32,197 bases of DNA from Caenispirillum bisanense (lineage in GTDB: Bacteria > Pseudomonadota > Alphaproteobacteria > Rhodospirillales > UBA2165): positions 1-32,197 of the forward strand of contig CAMDWJ010000044.1 of the NCBI GenBank assembly GCA_945877815.1, read 5' to 3'. A model generated the notes under the pieces. It saw only the letters and a list, made by a program, of their open reading frames with translations. It searched no databases and had not been told where the DNA came from. Below are positions 13,979 through 18,750 of this stretch, in pieces; the first letter of the stretch is position 1, and every line of letters begins with the position of its first letter. Both the position numbers and the translations under genes were made by a program.

Positions 13979-14791
13979 ATGCCGACGATCATCTCCATAG
14001 CCGATCCCGCCGATCCCCGGATCGAAGCCTATCGCGATATCCGCGAGCGCGACCTCGTGCGGCGCGACGGCTTGTTCGTGGCCGAGGGCAAGGTCGTGCT
14101 GGCGATGTTGCTGGCCTCGAACATCTATCGCCCTGTGTCGCTTTTGATCGCCGAACGTCACCTCTCAGTGCTCGCGACGCTGCTTGCCGAAGTGCCAGAC
14201 GACGTTCCTGTCTATGCGGCGGCTCAGCCGGTGATCGATGGCATCGCCGGCTTTCCGCTTCATCGCGGCATTCTGGCGATTGGGCGCCGGATCGATGCGC
14301 CGAGTGCCGATGCGCTGCTCGGCCGCCTGCCGCCGCGTGCGGTCGTCCTGGTGCTCGCGGGCATCGCCAATCACGACAATATGGGCGGTATCTTCCGCAA
14401 TGCCGCGGCCTTCGGCGCGGCTGCGGTCCTGCTCGATGCCGATTGCTGCGATCCGCTCTATCGCAAGGCGATCCGCGTCTCCGTCGGAGCGGCGCTCGCG
14501 GTGCCGTTCGCCCGCCTTGCGCGGGGCGAGGATATGATCGGCTTGTTGGAGCGCTATTCTTTCGGATCGATCGCGCTCAGCCCCAGCGGAACGACCATGC
14601 TCGCCGATATCTTGCTGGGTCCGCGCACGGCTGTTTTGCTCGGCGCCGAAGGGCCGGGCCTCGCGCCCGAGCTGATGGCCCGCACGACCGGCGTGCGTAT
14701 TGCGATGGCGAACAATTTCGACTCGCTGAACGTCGCCACGACGAGTGGAATTGTGCTGCATCATCTTACGTCGTGGATCGGCCGCGGCTAA
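13979..14791 (+). CDS. SpoU/TrmH-family RNA 2'-O-methyltransferase
   Basis: A 270-residue SPOUT-class methyltransferase that should transfer a methyl group from S-adenosylmethionine to a ribose 2'-OH in rRNA or tRNA. The N-terminal substrate-binding part (about 1-110) includes RRDGLFVAEGKVVL. The knotted catalytic domain has all three family motifs: IANHDNMGGIFRNAAAFG (motif 1, with the catalytic Asn/Arg), LLGAEGPGL (motif 2) and IAMANNFDSLNVATTSGIVL (motif 3). RNA target and position cannot be told from sequence. It starts 17 bases after cckA and may be cotranscribed with the flagellar/cckA operon, though it has no evident role there. Confidence 0.93.
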   Translation: MPTIISIADPADPRIEAYRDIRERDLVRRDGLFVAEGKVVLAMLLASNIYRPVSLLIAERHLSVLATLLAEVPDDVPVYAAAQPVIDGIAGFPLHRGILAIGRRIDAPSADALLGRLPPRAVVLVLAGIANHDNMGGIFRNAAAFGAAAVLLDADCCDPLYRKAIRVSVGAALAVPFARLARGEDMIGLLERYSFGSIALSPSGTTMLADILLGPRTAVLLGAEGPGLAPELMARTTGVRIAMANNFDSLNVATTSGIVLHHLTSWIGRG

Positions 14792-14792
14792 C

Positions 14793-14819
14793 AAAAAAGG
14801 CCGCCCGAAGGCGGCCTTT
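14793..14819 (-). terminator. Rho-independent terminator of the minus-strand micro-gene
   Basis: A perfect 10-bp stem (arms 14796-14805 and 14810-14819). Read on the minus strand the loop is TTCG, an unusually stable tetraloop, and the stem leads straight into six Ts. On the plus strand only three Ts follow the stem, so the hairpin is built chiefly to stop leftward transcription; it may also stop the methyltransferase transcript coming the other way. Confidence 0.88.
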
Positions 14820-14858
14820 CCCGTGAGGGCCAGTCTCAGCCCAAATCTGTTTCGCTGC

Positions 14859-14936
14859 TCAAGCCGCCTCGTGAGGTAGCTCGAATGCCGTCGAAACTCT
14901 ATGGCCTGTAGACGGGGCCTTTATCTCACTCGACAT
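14859..14936 (-). CDS. 25-residue small protein, unrecognised, with extended Shine-Dalgarno
   Basis: The ORF encodes MSSEIKAPSTGHRV followed by STAFELPHEAA and a TGA stop. I recognise no family. It has no signal peptide, membrane segment or cysteine. Support for expression comes from its surroundings. The 15 bases directly before the ATG (14937-14951) are AAAGGAGGTGATCCA on the minus strand, complementary over at least 13 bases to the 3' end of 16S rRNA, with AGGAGG at ideal spacing. A TTCG-loop terminator with a T6 tail lies 40 bases after the stop. No gene follows before the terminator, so it is a free-standing unit, not a leader for a downstream gene. Alternatives are a regulatory RNA with a decoy Shine-Dalgarno, or a leader peptide whose downstream gene has been lost. 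Confidence 0.6.
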   Translation of the reverse strand: MSSEIKAPSTGHRVSTAFELPHEAA

Positions 14937-14951
14937 TGGATCACCTCCTTT
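14937..14951 (-). promoter_or_regulatory. Near-perfect extended ribosome-binding site
   Basis: On the minus strand this reads AAAGGAGGTGATCCA immediately before the ATG at 14936. The usual 16S rRNA 3' end contains TGGATCACCTCCTTT, so the pairing would be about 15 bases, far more than the 4-6 seen before the other genes here. Core AGGAGG is seven bases from the start codon. It decides the start of the 25-residue ORF. Confidence 0.75.
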
Positions 14952-14961
14952 CGGTTAAGTT

Positions 14962-15025
14962 GATGGGCAGGGGAATCATCGCACCGAATGCTTTGGCCCA
15001 CAATAGGTGGGCAGGCGGTGGGCAG
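14962..15025. repeat. Three GRTGGGCAG repeats in helical phase, plus hairpin
   Basis: Nine-base repeats GATGGGCAG (14962-14970), GGTGGGCAG (15006-15014) and GGTGGGCAG (15017-15025) start 44 and 11 bases apart, all multiples of 11. The middle copy also forms a hairpin with GCCCAC at 14996-15001 (loop AATAG, arm GTGGGC 15007-15012). They lie between the divergent micro-gene and the MetE-like gene, so an operator for a regulator of one or both is possible. This is a small repeat and could be chance. Confidence 0.35.
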
Positions 15026-15113: not shown

Positions 15114-16475
15114 GTGCACCGCAGCACCGATCGCATTTTGACCACCCATGTCGGCAGTTTGATTCGCCCGAAGGAGCTTTTGGACGAATTCTTGCTGCCC
15201 ATCCAGCGCGGCGATACCGTCGACGAGGTGGCGCACGAGGCCATGCTGCTGCGCACGGTCGCGGATGTCGTGAAACACCAAGCAGCGGCCGGCATCGACG
15301 TCGTCAGCGACGGCGAGTTCGGCAAGGCCTATAGCTGGTCTCAATATGTGCTCGACCGCCTGGCCGGCTTCACCAAGCGCACCGTGGCCGCCGGCGAGCA
15401 GGATCCGTTCGAGAAGGGCGCGGACCGCGCGCGTTTTCCCGAATTCTACGCCGAACTCGACGGCAAGGAGCGCACCCGGCGCAGCGTCGACGTGGTCTGC
15501 ACCGCGCCGATCAAATATACCGGCCATGCGGCGGTCCAGCGCGATATCGACAATCTCAAGGCGGCACTCAAGCACGCCAACGTGACCGAGGGCTTTTTGC
15601 CAGTGGCGGCCCCCGCCAGCGTGATTCCCGATCGTCGCAACGAATATTACAAGACCGACGAGGAGTTGGTGTACGCGATCGCGGACGCCATGCGCGAGGA
15701 ATACAAGGCGATCATCGATGCGGGCCTAATCGTGCAGATCGACGATGCGCGCGCCGCAGTCACCTACGACCGCATGGTGCCGCCCGGCACCTTCAAGGAT
15801 TTCCGCAAGTGGCTGACGCTCTACATGGATGCGCTCAATTACGCGATCAAGGGCCTGCCCGAAGAGAAGATCCGCTATCACGTCTGTTGGGGTTCGTGGC
15901 CTGGCCCGCACACCACTGACGTTCCCTTCAAGGATATCGCCGATCTGGTGCTCGGCATTAATTGCGGCGCCTATGTCCTGGAAATGGCGAACCCGCGCCA
16001 CGAGCATGAATGGAACGTCTGGCGCGACATCAAGATGCCGAAGAATCGCGTCCTTATCCCCGGCGTCATCAGTCATGCGACCAATATCGTCGAGCATCCC
16101 GAACTGGTGGCCGAGCGCATCGTGCGCGTCGCCCAGCTGGTCGGGCGTGAGAACGTGATCGCCGGCACCGATTGCGGTTTCGCCCAGGCGCCGACCGCCA
16201 AGCGCGTTCACGAGACAATCCAGTGGGCCAAGCTCGAAGCTTTGTCCGAGGGGGCGGCGCTCGCCAGCAAGCAGCTATGGGCCAAAGGCAAGGCCAAGGC
16301 GGCTAAGAAGGCCGTAAAGAAAAAGGCGGTCAAGAAAAACGCGAAAAAGCTCGCCAAGAAGGCCACCAAGAAAGTCGCGAAAAAAGCGGCCAAGAAGGTA
16401 ACGGCTAAAAAGAAGACACCCGCGAAAAAGAAAGTCGTCGCGAAGGCGAAGAAAAAGGCCTGGCGCCGCCGTTAA
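15114..16475 (+). CDS. MetE-like zinc methyltransferase with histone-H1-like tail
   Basis: A 453-residue protein. Residues 1-389 belong to the cobalamin-independent methionine synthase (MetE C-terminal) / vitamin-B12-independent thiol methyltransferase superfamily, a TIM barrel. The zinc ligands are all present: His256 and Cys258 (YHVCWGSW), Glu290 (LEMAN) and Cys354 (GTDCGF). The N-terminal TTHVGSLIRP and VSDGEFGK are also typical. It is the short single-barrel form, so the methyl donor and acceptor need not be those of MetE; homocysteine or another thiol is likely. Residues 390-453 are a separate tail with 30 lysines and only Ala, Val, Thr and a few others between them, ending WRRR, like histone H1 or bacterial AlgP/Hc1 tails. 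The start is GTG 15114, seven bases after GGAGG. It ends 13 bases from the convergent SulP gene. Confidence 0.88.
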   Translation: MHRSTDRILTTHVGSLIRPKELLDEFLLPIQRGDTVDEVAHEAMLLRTVADVVKHQAAAGIDVVSDGEFGKAYSWSQYVLDRLAGFTKRTVAAGEQDPFEKGADRARFPEFYAELDGKERTRRSVDVVCTAPIKYTGHAAVQRDIDNLKAALKHANVTEGFLPVAAPASVIPDRRNEYYKTDEELVYAIADAMREEYKAIIDAGLIVQIDDARAAVTYDRMVPPGTFKDFRKWLTLYMDALNYAIKGLPEEKIRYHVCWGSWPGPHTTDVPFKDIADLVLGINCGAYVLEMANPRHEHEWNVWRDIKMPKNRVLIPGVISHATNIVEHPELVAERIVRVAQLVGRENVIAGTDCGFAQAPTAKRVHETIQWAKLEALSEGAALASKQLWAKGKAKAAKKAVKKKAVKKNAKKLAKKATKKVAKKAAKKVTAKKKTPAKKKVVAKAKKKAWRRR

Positions 16476-16488
16476 AGCGGCCGCAGCC

Positions 16489-18750
16489 TTAGCGCTCGAC
16501 GGCGGCGGCGAGTAAGCGGTCCTTGTCGGCGAGCCGCGCGCTCAGCCGCCGTGCCATGAATTCATGGAAGTCGCCGCCGACATTGGGCGCGACTTTCCCG
16601 ATGCGATCGAGGATGTCGCGGGTCAGTCGATAGACCACGGCATCTTCGTCGGCGACGACGGTCGCCGAGCGCGCAAGCCCGAGATAGAAGCCAAGCTCGC
16701 CGACCATGGTTCCCGGACCCATCGTGCGCACTCGCATGGTCGCACCCGAGGCAAACGTTACCCGCACGGTGACGCGGCCGGATTCCAGGAAATAGAGATC
16801 GTCCGACTGTTCGCCCTGGGTTAGTACCGGAGCGCCCTTGGCGATTTCGCGGCGTTCGAGAAAGCCCACAAAATCGCGTGCCGTGGCGGCGTCGGCGAAT
16901 TCGCGCCCGAGCAGCGTGGCCAGCGGCTCGGGCGTCAATTGCGCGGGCCGCAGGCTCGCGAGAATACGCTCCTCGCACCATTCGAGGCCGTGATCCAAGG
17001 TATCGAACAGGCGAATGCCGCGCGCGCCATCGTCGTCGCTTGCGGCAAACAGCCCATCGCCTTTGATGCGACGGGCGAGACGGTCGGAGAACGACGTGAA
17101 CAGGATCGTGAATCCGATCCGGTCGGCCAACTGACGCAGCCGTTCGAAGCTGAAGGCGGCGGAACTGTCGATATCGTCGACGCCGCGGAAATCGAGCACG
17201 AGATAGCGGAACGCTTGCGGCTGACTGTCGCGCGCAAGGCGGATCTGGCGCAGCAGGGAATTCGCGGTGCCGAAGAATAGATAGCCTTGCAAATGCATGG
17301 TCAGCAATTGCCAGCCGTTGTCGTGCAGCCGCTTGCGGTCATCCTCCGCGCGTTCGACATTGCTTTCGGCGACCTCGCCGTTATAGCGCAAGCGCACGAC
17401 GGGAATACGGCTATAGCTCGCTGCGAAGCTGGCGCAGCCGGCGAGGAGCCCAGCGAAGACCGCAGTCACGAATCCGAATTTCACCGCGATGGCGACAATG
17501 CCGACGACGGTCAACCAGTCGATGATCGCAAGTTGACGGAGCGAGCGAACGATCCATTGGCGCATCATATCGAGGCCGAGATAAAGCAACAGCCCGCCCA
17601 GCATCGGTGTCGGCACGATCTCGACGATGAGAGCCCCTTTGAGCGAGACCGCGATCACCATCAGCCCGGCGGCGAAACCGGCGAAGCGCGTCTGCGCGCC
17701 TGCCTTGATCATGGCGAGAGAGCGGCTGACCGAGGTGTAGCCGACCATGCCGCCGGCAAGACCCGTCACCAAGGCCGCTAATCCGTGCCCGCGTAGATCG
17801 CGGTCGAGATCGGCGTCGCGCGCCATGGCGACTTCGAGCCCGCTGATATTCACCAGGATCGTTACGGCGGTCACCAGCATGATCGCGACGAGATCGCCCC
17901 AATGATCGAGCAAGACCATCCAATCGACTTCGGCCAGCCGATCTGGAGTCCATGGCATCGTCAAGGGCAGGGAGTCGGGCACCGACATCAGCCAGCCGTG
18001 CCCATGCAGTTGCGCCGTATCGAGGCCGACGATCCAAAAGGCGATGTGATGGGCGAGGATGCCGATCACGATCAAAACCGGTAGCGTCATGAAATGCTTG
18101 AACCGCGGCATGACGATGAAGAGTGTTGCCGTGACTGCCATGCTGGCGAGCAGGCGGGGCCACGGTTCGAATGCGCCGAGGGTGGCGAGGCTGGCGAAAT
18201 TGAGTGTGATGCCGCCGCCGACGCCGAGGCCGCCAGTGGCGACGAACCAACCCGTGGCGCCGAGGAAACCTGCCGTTACCGGGTAGGGAATGAAGCGCAC
18301 CGCCTGGCCGGCACGCGCGCTGCCGGGTACCACGAGGAAGATGCCGGTCAGGCAGGCGCTCAAGCTCAGCGCCGTCAGTACGGTGGCGAGCACGACGGAT
18401 GGTGCTGCATCGGCACCGAGATCGACCACGATGGTCGCGACGACGACCGCGAGCACCGCCGAGATATTCGCGTCCGTACCGGCGAGCGTGAAGGGTAGGG
18501 AACTCGCCAGCGATACGATCAGGGGCAGGATCGCCGTGGCGGTCAGGACCAAAACGAATCCTTAGGGGCGCAATCCCTCGACCGGACCTGAGAAGATCAA
18601 GGCGCCGTAGGACAGCGCATAGGTGATCGTCAGCAACGTCGCGACGAATGCGGCGGACAGATCGCCGGTCAATTGATGGGGCGATGGTAGGAGGCTGCTC
18701 ACCGTTATTTTTGGCGCGGGTATGGGAGCCTGATCCAAAATTTCCCCCAA
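16489..18750 (-). pseudogene. SulP-family anion transporter with STAS and cNMP domains, split by in-frame TAA
   Basis: Read through one stop codon this is a SulP/SLC26 anion transporter of about 753 residues. The first 62 codons end in ALSYGALIFSGPVEGLRP, then TAA (18564-18562), then the same frame continues GFVLVLTATAILPLIVSLASS, which is the family sequence expected next. So it is a single-codon nonsense change (an ancestral Tyr codon is likely), not a frameshift. The rest is intact: transport domain to about 17400, STAS domain (LLTMHLQGYLFFGTANS, VLDFRGVDDIDSSAAFSFERL), and a C-terminal cyclic-nucleotide-binding domain (GERSATV-type GELGFYLGLARSATV, with Arg kept). Start TTG 18750 follows GGAGG; GTG 18702 is an alternative. 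AAGGA beside the stop, six bases before TTG 18552, could allow reinitiation of a shortened protein. A sequencing or assembly error is equally possible. Confidence 0.8.

Follow-up and report, generated by a model that had tools for sequence, protein, structure and literature searches.

A CC2171-kind small RNA of Caenispirillum bisanense whose conserved function may be ribosome loading

Introduction

What is selected when a start codon directly adjoins a complement of the 16S rRNA 3' tail, the frame thus opened closes after 25 codons, and a terminator ends the unit with no regulated gene behind it on the same strand: a peptide, an RNA, or the passage of ribosomes itself? This question is raised by the minus strand around positions 14793 to 15003 of the window, by which we mean the whole stretch of 32,197 nucleotides of Caenispirillum bisanense DNA that was analyzed. 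The explanation that we prefer, and to which we would give an even chance, is that the element is a translated, structured small RNA (sRNA), the conserved function of which would be ribosome loading.

A free-standing element complementary to the 16S rRNA tail

On the minus strand, positions 14952–14937 read GAAAGGAGGTGATCCA, a perfect 16-nt complement of the 3' tail of the 16S rRNA of the same genome (...GGCTGGATCACCTCCTTTC, read on contig C50 of G000), the gene of which sits on a different contig from the element. Within it, AAAGGAGGTGATCCA occupies positions 14951–14937, and the ATG at 14936 lies directly 3'. The ORF that follows (14936–14859, stop included) counts 25 codons from ATG to TGA and would encode the peptide MSSEIKAPSTGHRVSTAFELPHEAA. 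About 39 nt after its stop stands an intrinsic terminator (14822–14793), made of a 10-bp stem AAAGGCCGCC-TTCG-GGCGGCCTTT followed by a T run, the helix of which is also paired in relatives. An earlier, sequence-only reading of this DNA had announced a near-perfect 15-base Shine–Dalgarno (SD) sequence abutting an ATG, a 25-codon ORF, and a terminator with a TTCG loop and six Ts; its coordinates were right, the match to the 16S rRNA is in fact one base longer and perfect, and the terminator holds as to stem, loop and spacing, although three of its six Ts belong to the stem.

The same reading had also claimed that complementarity of this length is seen nowhere else in the window and that the element is not an ordinary leader, and both statements are upheld. 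Indeed, a search allowing three mismatches found no second such docking string in the window: the two other matches both carry three mismatches, when shuffled windows give 0.5 matches on average and at least three in 4 of 100 shuffles. At the genome scale, the core GGAGGTGATC occurs 10 times, and is preceded by AAA only at the element and in the 16S gene. As for the leader, no regulated gene lies downstream on the same strand; since a convergent SpoU methylase gene (13979–14791, plus strand) is found past the terminator, which can also serve that gene, a leader or an attenuator was rejected. The plus strand resembles the 16S 3' end across 16 nt, but an antisense artefact of a 16S gene was likewise rejected, as the 16S gene of the genome is on another contig and no Rfam family reaches its own cut-off in the window, so that there is no RF00177 match past the tail. 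The plasmid collection yielded no similar DNA.

Upstream, a putative promoter is formed by a −35 box TTGTGG (14998–15003, minus strand) and, 17 nt further, a −10 box GATGAT (14975–14980), which is a weak match to TATAAT. In the Rhizobiales-like group of relatives defined below, a sigma-70-like promoter is seen at about the expected distance, TTG being the commonest triplet at about the distance of the window's −35 box and −10-like hexamers peaking at about the same place as GATGAT; the signal is weak in the window's own group and was not seen in Sphingomonadales. Transcription probably starts around the short leader ATCAACTTAACC (14953–14964), an AACAAC-type sequence that is conserved in relatives and close to which the Rfam model discussed in the next section begins. 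With regard to expression, a relative of the element, MH_s33 of Mesorhizobium huakuii, figures as a 215-nt entry in a table row that we take to describe an RNA-seq transcript (PMC5596092), and two Caulobacter ncRNAs once thought non-coding are reported to be translated, in a text that, as cited here, does not give their names (Schrader 2014, PMC4117421).

Kinship with RF01867 (CC2171) and distribution

A permissive Rfam search matched the element end to end (1–159) with RF01867, the Caulobacter sRNA CC2171, at 33 bits (E = 1.1e-5), which is below the curated gathering cut-off of 75 bits. The reverse comparison used a covariance model, R1, built from 18 window-type loci: the window copy, a further 16 belonging to the same order, and a single locus of the class outside that order (L062). 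Because R1 matches all 13 loci that score above the RF01867 cut-off (L033–L045; 31.9–54.5 bits), the element is treated here as a member of that family by homology, not by Rfam's own score. The RF01867 consensus has its leader and its 16S-complementary stretch in common with the element and carries a GUG at the place of the window's ATG; it also shares a closing helix between the start of the ORF and the bases preceding the terminator, followed by the terminator itself, although in the window this helix (H1) is only 5 bp long. Rfam types RF01867 as an sRNA gene, and we saw neither an ORF nor a 16S match stated there.

The family is widespread in the class and mostly single-copy. In a sample of 385 genomes of the class, 85 have an RF01867 match at E ≤ 0.001 (13 matches over the cut-off), with 92 matches in all and thus mostly one per genome; of the 14 named genomes that served as controls, Caulobacter vibrioides alone gave a match. 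Within the window's order, 21 of 297 genomes contain the pattern GAAAGGAGGTGATNNNATG, each a single time, when a reversed control pattern never occurs, and 20 of these 21 loci open a short frame of 21–32 codons (one, L019, lies near a contig end), the remaining locus (L032) starting an ordinary ORF of 230 codons. The exact pattern is present in 10 of the 24 genomes of the window's family; divergence and incomplete genomes may explain part of this patchy occurrence in family and order. A strict-pattern scan of named genomes returned at least 120 loci, and the 80 titles listed include Sphingomonadales, Rhizobiales, Brevundimonas, Azospirillum and Acetobacteraceae; we take all 80 to be Alphaproteobacteria, except two titled "Proteobacteria bacterium". 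Across the phylum, R1 reaches E ≤ 0.001 in 202 of 398 genomes; most of its matches under about 30 bits, however, cover no more than a bare terminator or a short stretch.

Clustering of the ORFs that flank the loci yielded no neighboring gene common to different orders: the largest cluster gathers 32 Sphingomonadales-type loci and may not consist of real genes, and the others count at most 8 loci. At L033, L035 and L040, the sequence past the terminator resembles by eye the start (DADACPVKAE) of what is presumably a DUF188/YaiI-type protein.

Complementarity to the 16S tail within and beyond the class

Measured against the tail of the window genome and with G-U pairs allowed, the run complementary to 16S rRNA spans 16, 15 and 14 nt in 23, 5 and 2, respectively, of the 30 loci found with RF01867, a set that is not wholly unselected for this trait, as the model includes the docking stretch and all 30 passed a loose SD expression at extraction. 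Some relatives carry GGTGGTCC, which retains pairing with the 16S tail through G-U. When the RNAs are folded in isolation, the SD core is unpaired only about one third of the time (0.35, 0.33 and 0.27 on average by group), and the isolated fold is thus predicted to leave the docking site less than fully open; in the RNAalifold consensus, the core has no partner beyond a 3-bp GGA/TCC helix. A candidate internal anti-SD, TGGATCCTCGCCTC, is present in the Rhizobiales-like ORF.

Long SD pairing close to a start codon has been described for the extended SD sites of Staphylococcus aureus, where, according to the text cited, it is a general feature of the mRNAs of that species (PMC13009471). The element differs in that the long pattern matches once per genome having it, and does so on a free-standing, structured RNA.

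Outside the class, the R1 matches above 30 bits, among those listed, are G688 (42 bits), G917 (37 bits) and G695 (35.9 bits), the last of which is without the docking sequence and looks like a chance match. G688 and G917, two genomes of one family, carry TAAGGAGGTGATCATATG, an 18-codon ORF and a terminator. The 16S tail of G917 reads CCTCCTTAC, and its look-alike carries TAAGGAGGTGATC; the docking sequence there thus follows the 16S end of its own lineage (GGATCACCTCCTTACT), a tail that differs from the type of the window genome. This comparison draws on tails read for G000, G835 and G917, 16S genes having been found in 4 of the 14 genomes asked. Because the predicted folds of G688 and G917 do not clearly show the rod described below, their elements may be homologues or look-alikes arisen by parallel invention. 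The pattern TAAGGAGGTGATCNNRTG is found in 2 of 229 genomes of the class of G688 and G917, G688 itself included, and no look-alike of this kind was found in the E. coli genomes. The loci of G688 (L237), G917 (L238) and a further genome, G1248 (L244), all present a free-standing TAAGGAGGTGATC followed by ATG, an ORF of 11–18 codons and a terminator-like hairpin, with a docking sequence that matches the other 16S tail type; the peptides of G688 and G917 both contain AMSEGR.

A reading frame kept as such, with little sign of a selected peptide

To follow the ORF in relatives, 172 loci were extracted, and those that were distinct and extended 120 nt or more past the start were kept in three groups: window-type (27), Rhizobiales-like (81) and Sphingomonadales-type (58). 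The first in-frame stop falls at codons 14–33 in 26 of 27, 81 of 81 and 55 of 58 of these loci, against 4 and 1, 18 and 26, and 18 and 37 loci, respectively, in the other two frames; a single reading frame is thus maintained. The ORF mostly spans 18–26 codons, with a length that varies by group: 20–26 codons in 79 of 81 Rhizobiales-like loci, 18 in 49 of 58 Sphingomonadales-type loci and 26 in 16 of 27 window-type loci. Stop codons interchange. In Sphingomonadales, 49 of 58 loci have a stop at codon 19 (24 TAA, 22 TGA, 3 TAG), a count reached in none of 2,000 column shuffles (mean 40.8, maximum 46), which ignore relatedness. Three of the four loci that miss the 14–33-codon range belong to Azospirillum (L107, L133, L144), where the same docking sequence opens a frame of 57–59 codons with, by eye, a signal-peptide-like start, possibly a protein grown out of the mini-ORF.

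The peptide itself gives a different picture. From codon 7 onward, pN/pS is 1.05 in the Rhizobiales-like group (15 independent close pairs) and 1.60 in Sphingomonadales (19 pairs), hence no clear synonymous bias in close pairs; in the other frames, it is 0.84 and 0.76 (group R), 1.04 and 0.55 (group S), and 1.25 and 0.68 (group F). A value of 0.44 for group F (6 pairs) was set aside, because that group also held the Azospirillum loci with longer ORFs; recounted without them, five close pairs of the window's order differ at codon positions 1, 2 and 3 in 12, 9 and 16 cases, which is only a slight third-position excess (16 of 37). Neither Pfam (searched with one peptide) nor NCBIfam (three peptides) gave a family match. 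The ORF thus appears to be kept as an ORF, not visibly as a protein sequence. A weak protein constraint may still act, since these bases are under structural constraint as well, which itself reduces synonymous change.

These results do not bear out the highly translated small protein proposed from sequence, and a conserved micro-protein was rejected. The absence of synonymous bias, which that proposal had itself named as a ground for refutation, largely holds against the protein, but the frame is kept. Nor is its suggested likeness to ClpXP degrons supported: the C-terminal HEAA is replaced by RETA, RSHA, RGHA, FATG or FCHN in relatives, and the degron was rejected.

A covarying rod around the ORF

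Folded individually, most of the window-type loci shown, like many of the other loci, form a rod in which the opening codons are paired with the stretch that immediately precedes the terminator, and the remainder of the ORF with the 3' portion; the terminator hairpin stands alongside; among the folds listed, L061, L111 and L151 are some of those that fold otherwise. In the window, folds and covariation place helix H1 between GTGAG (14925–14929, minus strand; ORF codons 3–4) and CTCAC (14823–14827), which adjoins the terminator (14793–14822), and helix P2 between GGCC at 14916–14919 and GGCC at 14828–14831. A hairpin within the ORF, GAG-CTAC-CTC (14873–14882), covaries in relatives, although its bases are paired in a somewhat different way in the lowest-energy fold of the window's copy. 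The consensus structure was set by hand; RNAalifold, applied to the MAFFT alignment, did not recover H1, the 3' strand of which sits two columns out of register in a few sequences.

Across the 18 window-type sequences, this consensus is paired in 90.7% of cells against 77.7% after shuffling, with 67 double-changed cells against 22.4 and a covariation of 0.472 against 0.227 (0.087–0.226 in slid controls), none of these values being reached in 500 shuffles, which ignore relatedness; further pair types (40 vs 36.8; 53 of 500 shuffles) are not significant. Most of this covariation comes from the terminator, the helix of which is paired in 98.0% of cells, and from the intra-ORF hairpin; P2 is paired in 77.8%, and in H1 one pair of four shows double changes (4 cells). 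A broader set of 73 matches from 70 loci, 8 of them from the strict-pattern scan, gives a covariation of 0.384 against 0.144 (0 of 500 shuffles; slid controls at most 0.124), three of the matches being bare terminators on the other strand. There, H1 pairs switch among AU, GC and UA (e.g., GC in 29 and UA in 27 matches at one pair), in an alignment that was itself fitted to the model. True strand pairs are also more stable than between-lineage swaps in groups F (−13.0 vs −9.6 to −10.5), R (−16.9 vs −9.6 to −14.9) and S (−17.8 vs −9.8 and −10.8); within Sphingomonadales, where the strands hardly vary, swapped and native strands pair equally well. Beyond the stop, loci of this order (e.g., L081, L123, L159) also carry another conserved block, GGGGGTATCCTCCCCC plus GGTCTCCCGGGCTGGAGCT, which the model used here does not explain.

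Ribosome loading as a proposed function, and its rivals

Sequence comparison thus supports the family assignment, the 16S match, the maintenance of the ORF, the lack of clear peptide selection and the covarying fold. Taken together, these features would make the element this genome's version of an alphaproteobacterial sRNA of the CC2171 kind that is widespread and mostly single-copy, and that could work as follows. A housekeeping-type promoter would yield an RNA of about 170 nt, the 5' leader of which would pair with the entire single-stranded 16S 3' tail and load 30S subunits at near-maximal affinity on a very short ORF embedded in the rod. Since start and stop codons are kept, ribosomes would load, read some 18–26 codons and leave, the short ORF ending the encounter quickly; with no clear selection on the amino acids, the selected product would be the RNA together with its ribosome traffic. 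Because the docking site adjoins the start codon and H1 begins a few bases after it, a 30S subunit positioned at the start codon, or else the first ribosome to elongate, would have to meet the rod and open H1. Most likely, the RNA would either be switched by free 30S between a folded and a ribosome-opened state or titrate 30S, the quick stop releasing each ribosome. Transcription and translation at this locus, the switch or titration and the process that it regulates are what we infer from these features. The sequence-only reading had offered, beside its small protein, a dual-function RNA and an RNA that occupies ribosomes: the covarying structure, the long 16S match and the retained start and stop agree with the former and fit the latter best.

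The nearest rivals keep the RNA and recast the role of translation. In one, which we consider unlikely, the RNA would be purely non-coding and its 5' tail would pair with 16S rRNA as a decoy, a chaperone of 16S end maturation or a 30S sponge, the ORF being incidental. A 16S match exceeding what initiation usually needs, the covariation, the lack of clear peptide selection and, in one case outside the class (G917), a docking sequence that follows the lineage's 16S tail would all suit it, but an incidental ORF would hardly have its start codon bordering the match, its first stops concentrated at codons 14–33 in frame 0 and its stop codons interchanging. In the other, about as unlikely in our judgment, rod and loops would bind mRNA targets and translation of the mini-ORF would switch this activity. 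The covarying rod with its loops is compatible with such a dual function, for which rnTrpL of Sinorhizobium, likewise an sRNA with a very short ORF in an alphaproteobacterium, offers a precedent (PMC10117765), yet no conserved unpaired seed was seen besides the SD region. The rnTrpL RNA, in the text cited, is leaderless, corresponds to the tryptophan attenuator and has a functional peptide (PMC10117765), whereas the element has a very long SD, no downstream gene on the same strand and an unconserved peptide. The Sinorhizobium SEP1 peptide, with its 23 aa and a pI of 4.18, was dropped as a match.

A functional micro-protein, either fast-evolving or of which only the length or start matters, deserves little credence: the ORF is maintained, an N-terminal Met/Val-Ser is frequent across groups and the slight third-position excess in the window's order points the same way, but the two pN/pS values, the absence of a match to Pfam or NCBIfam for the peptides given and the dissimilarity of peptides between groups weigh against it. 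A leader or attenuator, a stray 16S fragment or a chance string is a very remote prospect, since the plus-strand resemblance to the 16S end over 16 nt is set against the convergent gene beyond the terminator, the lack of an RNA family at its cut-off in the window, relatives across the whole class and an expectation of 0.5 weak chance matches in the window.

If we return to ribosome loading, a more specific version of it can be formulated, which is possible but rather doubtful: an RNA that gauges or titrates free 30S through a full complement of the 16S tail, a sequence-free tiny ORF and a conserved rod opened by ribosomes, with similar, tail-matched RNAs outside the class. If true, such a 30S-gauging RNA would be the ribosome-side counterpart of 6S RNA, and its ORF would be conserved for being read, not for its product. 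RF01867 is filed as a small RNA, under a name rarely met in the literature searched; with full 16S-tail complementarity and a sequence-free mini-ORF as its most constant features, this orphan sRNA would become a ribosome-linked regulator testable in model organisms such as Caulobacter. For RF01867/CC2171, the literature searched yielded no account of either the ORF or the 16S match, and the sequence strings of the element retrieved no paper with a relevant title; prior notice is possible in Landt 2008, the original Caulobacter sRNA paper, or in supplementary material.

Elsewhere in the window, the gene at 15114–16475 (plus strand) encodes a methionine-synthase-like protein (PF01717) with a long lysine- and alanine-rich, histone-H1-like C-terminal tail (AKKAVKKKAVKK...), and the one at 16489–18552 (minus strand) a sulfate permease that combines STAS and cyclic-nucleotide-binding domains on a single chain.
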